Positions 49,662 through 49,840 of a stretch of DNA of 64,000 nucleotides are shown here, piece after piece. The notes under the pieces were generated by a model, which worked only from the letters and a program-made list of their open reading frames with translations, was not told where the DNA came from and did not search any database. The translations under genes were made by a program, and so were the position numbers. The stretch is from Oscillospiraceae bacterium (GTDB lineage: Bacteria; Bacillota; Clostridia; Oscillospirales; Ruminococcaceae), in contig JALFVE010000047.1 of assembly GCA_022787085.1 (NCBI GenBank), forward strand, positions 1-64,000, written 5' to 3'. The first letter of the stretch is position 1; every line of letters starts with the position of its first letter.

Positions 49662-49840
49662 AAGACAGGATTTTATACTAAACACCTATTGAATTATGGG
49701 AATCTCTCGCCGCAAAATCCATATATGCAAGCTTTTGCGGCGATTTCTTCTCCATAATTCTAATGGTGTTTAGTATTACCGATAAAATCGGGCAGGATTT
49801 GAACCTGCATTAACCAATTAAAAAATGCTGTGACTGTCTT
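49662..49840 (-). ncRNA. Unit 6 of CAGCAA stem-loop array, interrupted by MITE copy 3
   Basis: 5' AAGACAG-TCACAGCA...T-arm-like GCAGGTTCAAATCCTGC + CCGATTTTATCGG hairpin ...[MITE]... CTGTCTT 3' (pairs with AAGACAG). Confidence 0.65.
49676..49775. mobile_element. 100-bp MITE, copy 3 (inverted relative to copies 1 and 2)
   Basis: TACTAAACACCTATTGAATTATGGGAATCTCTCGCCGCAAAATCC...CCATAATTCTAATGGTGTTTAGTA. Confidence 0.88.

Follow-up and report, generated by a model that had tools for sequence, protein, structure and literature searches.

Recent insertion of a MITE into the sixth and last unit of a Y-RNA-like array that separates rtcB from a Ro-like protein gene in an Oscillospiraceae bacterium

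The closest described systems to the locus reported here are the rsr-yrlBA-rtcBA operon of Salmonella and the Y RNA of Deinococcus, in which a stem is formed from the two ends of the RNA (PMC7790460, PMC8394870). The YrlA RNA carries a tRNA-like module with the order T-arm, acceptor, D-arm, and in these systems a Ro-fold protein is linked to RtcB (PMC7790460, PMC8394870). In Rsr-YrlA, the Ro protein sits on the basal stem of the Y RNA and an effector is bound by the tRNA-like module (PMC8394870), and for Salmonella the idea has been raised that YrlA serves as a decoy for tRNA-cutting enzymes (PMC7790460). Transcribed copies of bacterial MITEs are known to form hairpins (PMC10969869, PMC5896051). 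In this study, we describe a locus in which a MITE has recently inserted into one unit of a Y-RNA-like array, and we consider what the insertion reveals about the array and what it may do to the RNA.

The window, that is the whole stretch of DNA that was analysed, is 64,000 nucleotides long and comes from a gut bacterium. On its minus strand, six units, each closed by a stem, form an array in the intergenic stretch between rtcB and the gene of a Ro-like protein (Table 1). As in the Salmonella and Deinococcus systems, the closing stem (7 bp) is built from the 5' and 3' ends of each unit, the module of unit 1 follows the YrlA order, and a protein of Ro fold goes together with RtcB. The locus differs from Rsr/YrlA in that up to six units stand in a row and combine a constant stem-CAGCA handle with differing modules, in that the Ro-like protein is of the DUF2828 kind and is missed by Ro sequence, in that the array falls below the Rfam YrlA gathering score, and in that WYL-like regulators take the place of RtcR. 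We read the array as a divergent multi-unit Y-RNA-like system of Clostridia linked to RtcB, whose function is suggested by these parallels.

Table 1. Coordinates of the features of the locus (window positions).
Feature	Position	Strand	Basis
Ro-like protein gene, 491 residues, DUF2828 + DUF7788 (vWA-like)	48169-49644	-	Pfam
Unit 6, MITE inside	49661-49840	-	MITE-free orthologs of 75-82 nt
Unit 6 closing stem, 3' strand CTGTCTT, then conserved G at 49661	49662-49668	-	sequence
TAA target duplication, copy 2	49673-49675	-	TNA rule and empty sites in relatives
MITE, 100 bp, near-perfect palindrome	49676-49775	-	genome copies; absent at orthologous place in three congeners
TAA target duplication, copy 1	49776-49778	-	9 of 10 clean MITE copies carry a TNA duplication
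Unit 6 acceptor-like hairpin CCGAT-TTT-ATCGG	49779-49791	-	compensatory CCGAA/TTCGG in G003
Unit 6 T-arm-like hairpin GCAGG-TTCAAAT-CCTGC	49792-49808	-	weak Rfam tRNA match, 14.4 bits
Unit 6 GG-bearing strand AATTGGTTAAT, putatively D-loop-like	49809-49819	-	GG and adjacent bases unchanged among four congeners
Unit 6 closing stem, 5' strand AAGACAG, then TCA-CAGCA (49833-49826)	49834-49840	-	sequence
Unit 5, stem AAGGCTC/GAGCCTT	49855-49926	-	
Unit 4, stem ACGGCTC/GAGCCGT, T-arm-like hairpin	49942-50066	-	
Unit 3, stem AAGGCAC/GTGCCTT, hairpin with seven-base loop CTGCCAC	50089-50143	-	
Unit 2, stem AAGGCGC/GCGCCTT	50156-50205	-	
Unit 1, YrlA-like module at 50300-50241 (T-arm, acceptor hairpin, D-arm: permuted tRNA order)	50221-50326	-	Rfam YrlA
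rtcB RNA ligase gene	50334-51608	-	Pfam RtcB, E 7e-110
Two divergent WYL/WCX-like regulator genes (51676-52965, 52972-53988)	51676-53988	+	weak WYL/WCX matches below cut-off

Arrays of this kind recur across Clostridia. The pattern sought upstream of the Ro-like gene in 36 loci was a stem strand of 7 nt, a three-base spacer and CAGC[AG], with the exact complement of the stem and a G further on. This yielded 100 units, a few of which are chance matches within coding sequence (e.g., L031 at -1125), with at least one unit in 32 of the loci; shuffled upstream DNA gave 0.4 units on average and never more than 2. The units use 32 different 7-bp stem sequences and their consensus reads AAGRYNC-NNA-CAGCAA...GNRYCTT-G, where CAGC, the exact pairing and the 3' G are invariant by construction, being imposed by the search, while the A on either side of CAGC and the AAG/CTT bias were not imposed. 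When larger regions around the loci were scanned, nearly all units were located directly before the Ro-like gene or before the rtcB-Ro pair, and none was found on the opposite strand. Unit number varies between genomes. RtcB adjoins the array in many loci, and RtcB together with the two WYL/WCX-like genes recurs beside the Ro-like gene.

Since the units consist of inverted repeats and lie in intergenic DNA, they could be taken as DNA repeats that never act as RNA, the MITE then lying merely in intergenic DNA. We consider this very improbable: the units keep to the operon orientation, their T-arms and tRNA-like domains score with RNA models, a hairpin of unit 6 shows a compensatory change, and true units are absent elsewhere in the genome, where the pattern has three other matches, all without a complementary stem. 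In the Y-RNA-like reading that we prefer, each unit would be a small RNA with two parts. Its basal stem and CAGCA would form a constant handle, to which the Ro-like protein probably binds, and its distal part would be a variable module that often mimics tRNA.

The tRNA-like character of the modules varies from unit to unit. T-arm-like hairpins occur in 27 of the 100 units. Unit 1 matches the Rfam YrlA model (RF02553) with 38.4 bits (E 7.9e-7), short of the gathering score of 69, and the YrlA-like modules of unit 1 and its counterparts in L029, L033, and L040 score 30-46 bits (up to 46.1; E 0.011 to 2.6e-7). At threshold, Rfam reports nothing in the array, and its only matches in the window are the cobalamin and SAM riboswitches at 7487-7704 and 16782-16896; ARAGORN predicts no tRNA in the 64,000 nt. 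Complete tRNA-like domains are found in units of other loci (L044:3135-3206 and L038:3168-3237, both minus strand; L089:1289-1357; L086:1088-1159), with Rfam tRNA scores up to 46.2 bits and ARAGORN calls of Ala-TGC, Met-CAT, and Ile-TAT for three of them. In one relative, a tRNA-like RNA lies downstream of rtcB (L043:4275-4373, identical with L109, approximately +2840 from the Ro-like start). It possesses an acceptor stem, D-arm, T-arm, and encoded CCA (Rfam tRNA 39.9 bits), and in place of the anticodon arm a Y-like stem with ACAGCA is joined by a short loop; it is a circular permutation of an array unit. Short units frequently contain a hairpin with the seven-base loop CTGYCAN, as in unit 3 and its counterparts in L029, L030, L031, L036, L042, and L045. 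The loop resembles an anticodon loop (GTC or GCC), and the hairpin may serve to mimic tRNA or to bind a protein.

The partner protein is recognizable as Ro-like by its fold. By sequence, Pfam finds only DUF2828 and DUF7788 and no TROVE/Ro domain, and a PDB profile search finds no Ro. The 13 best PDB fold matches of its AlphaFold2 model (pLDDT 79.8), on the other hand, are all Ro60, Rsr or TROVE structures (E 7e-8 to 1e-4, TM 0.39-0.57, with large rmsd), and residues D297, S299, and S301 of the vWA DxSxS motif are invariant. These results moderately support a helical-repeat ring with a vWA domain, i.e., the Ro fold, for the DUF2828 protein.

Unit 6 is the last unit before the Ro-like gene. Its distal module (GG strand, T-arm, and acceptor hairpin) would represent a mimic of the tRNA elbow; it departs from the YrlA module in that no D-arm follows the acceptor hairpin. 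A strand similar to its GG strand occurs in unit 2 of L036. As the first-pass annotation noticed, the 5' stem AAGACAG finds no complement before the MITE, and CTGTCTT starts 7 nt past the end of the element. The heptamer CTGTCTT occurs twice on the minus strand of the window, and the chance of one falling within 20 nt of the MITE is about 6e-4. The element interrupts the linker directly after the acceptor-like hairpin, at the position that the D-arm occupies in unit 1.

The inserted element has terminal inverted repeats, a target duplication, multiple copies, and no coding capacity. Like Correia, ERIC, and the Coxiella QMITEs, it is short, palindromic, non-coding, and multi-copy with target duplication, whereas this family differs from them in its TNA duplication and in its occurrence in one genus and a few neighbours (14 of 61 genomes examined, almost all belonging to that genus). 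In the present genome there are 11 near-full-length copies with an identity of at least 98%, in addition to decayed ones, and their flanks define the true ends of the element, TACTAAACACC...GGTGTTTAGTA. Nine full-length copies scored against the consensus differ at 0-3 sites each, the unit 6 copy by a single substitution, which agrees with the earlier view that the insertion is recent. A TNA duplication flanks 9 of 10 clean copies (TAA in six, TTA in two, TGA in one), and therefore the duplication in unit 6 is assigned as TAA. Duplication of TA was rejected, as the TNA rule fits both these copies and the empty sites of the relatives. Such a rule is reminiscent of some IS5-group elements. A terminal-repeat search of the same genome, with one region read, gave no transposase of a related autonomous element. 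One of nine copies lies beside a hairpin against a background of 5.6%, numbers too small to judge site preference. Thus a 100-bp palindromic MITE with a TNA duplication has recently inserted into the linker of unit 6, and as such it is an ordinary MITE event.

Empty sites are available in three congeners, G003 (L029), G018 (L030), and G009 (L031). All three share the rtcB-array-Ro order, have Ro-like proteins of 83-86% identity, and carry at the orthologous place an intact unit 6 of 75-82 nt without the MITE; when a genome collection was scanned for the Ro-like protein, just two loci came up, matching G003 and G009. The empty sites read CGGTAAATCC and CGGTAAAAGC, in agreement with TAA, and the junctions in the MITE-free congeners CGGTAAATCCTGTCTTG and CGGTAAAAGCTGTCTTG. 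The ancestral site is CGGTAAAATCC (CGG-TAA-AATCC) and not CGGTAATATAAAATCC; it is five bases shorter than the CGG-TAATATA-AAATCC predicted earlier. Excision of the element brings together the T-arm, the acceptor-like hairpin, and the 3' strand of the stem in the way that the first-pass annotation proposed, but one TAA has to be removed with it and not one TA. Among the congeners, the acceptor-like hairpin varies in length and stays paired; in G003 it reads CCGAA/TTCGG where the present unit has CCGAT/ATCGG, which amounts to a compensatory change. The T-arm shows one G-C to G-U change. The comparison had been suggested for related strains; carried out on three other species of the genus, it finds that the flanks do form the predicted unit. 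The empty sites with an intact unit therefore validate unit 6 as a real ancestral RNA unit, and what was a guess on unit 6 becomes evidence for real and conserved RNA units in the array. Given how recent the insertion is, the perfect flanks in this genome are no proof of continuing selection on unit 6.

How the insertion affects the RNA was approached by predicted folds, in which the MITE folds upon itself into a long stem of -48 kcal/mol. The closing stem of isolated unit 6 has a probability of 0.96 both with and without the MITE, and with short flanks included it has 0.39 and 0.53, respectively. Shuffled inserts in place of the MITE lower the latter context to 0.13 on average, and 11% of them hold the closing stem as well as the MITE does. 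The T-arm retains a probability of 0.99 in the folds with the MITE. When the entire array is folded, the closing stem of unit 6 is weak either way (0.15 with and 0.23 without the MITE), and for this reason single-sequence folding is not decisive. The first-pass annotation held that AAGACAG and CTGTCTT close only once the element is removed; the predicted folds, however, keep the stem with the MITE as a self-closed arm. Unit 6 is thus interrupted in the DNA, yet its RNA is probably not broken, the MITE forming an extra arm. The best explanation of the locus, to which we give a probability of about 0.72, is a recent TNA-type MITE in the last unit of a Y-RNA-like array, a unit whose basal stem likely still closes and which would have gained an arm. 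The MITE-bearing RNA would most likely close its basal stem and extend a long hairpin at the position of the D-arm in unit 1.

Alternatively, the MITE may have inactivated unit 6, its hairpin misplacing the module or being cut by RNase III, so that unit 6 would be a dying copy in a redundant array. Correia MITEs in transcripts are known to be cleaved by RNase III at their terminal repeats (PMC10969869), the MITE is predicted to fold into the long stem described above, and five other units are present in an array whose size differs between genomes. Against this, the predicted folds retain both the closing stem and the T-arm, and unit lengths of 48 to approximately 230 nt across the loci, a range that includes the 180 nt of the MITE-bearing unit 6, suggest that extra length is tolerated; with so young an insertion, decay of the flanks cannot speak for either side. 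Inactivation is in our view a possible outcome, though not the expected one. With the basal stem still closing, unit 6 would have been altered, with a possible new sensitivity to RNase III, but not lost, and cleavage by this enzyme could be the most plausible remaining effect of the MITE on unit 6 or on the downstream mRNA.

The end of the MITE is about 31 nt upstream of the Ro-like start codon, close to the 30 nt estimated before, and Correia elements can create promoters (PMC2649163). The element could uncouple the Ro-like gene from rtcB, as had been suggested, through a promoter or a transcription stop. A crude consensus scan of the MITE on the minus strand, however, gives no promoter- or terminator-like match, no T run follows the element, and the AAGGAG ribosome site (49656-49651) lies with its spacing wholly outside it. 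We regard such uncoupling as unlikely. RNase III, by cutting a MITE hairpin, might also separate the two genes.

The function of the array can be approached by analogy with Rsr-YrlA, in which case the DUF2828 protein would be bound at the stem-CAGCA handle, and each kind of module would display its own tRNA-like surface. The RNAs might guide decay or repair of RNA, or they might be decoys that attract enzymes which cut tRNA. A bolder and tentative proposal, which we think more doubtful than not, is that the array constitutes a library of tRNA-mimicking RNAs on one Ro-binding handle, serving as baits, sensors or tethers for tRNA-cutting and tRNA-processing enzymes and coupled to RtcB repair, with a handle modular enough to take up even a transposon hairpin as a new module. 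What Ro proteins and Y RNAs do beside RtcB can be pursued comparatively with these loci, including the natural insertion mutant of unit 6. The host array is more interesting than the insertion, whose value is that it led to the empty sites and to the array. The system appears to be widespread in Clostridia below the Rfam threshold; our search for literature on DUF2828 with RtcB or on Y-RNA arrays found nothing on point, key Y-RNA papers lying outside that search, and its novelty is provisional.

Two minor observations concern the neighbourhood of the insertion. Unit 4 of L030 and L031 is longer through tandem copies of a GTAAGCTTTCAGCTTACC-like hairpin, and units therefore gain hairpins by other means too. 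The Ro-like gene opens with ATGATG (49644-49639), and its relatives align to the second ATG at 49641, which is the likelier start.
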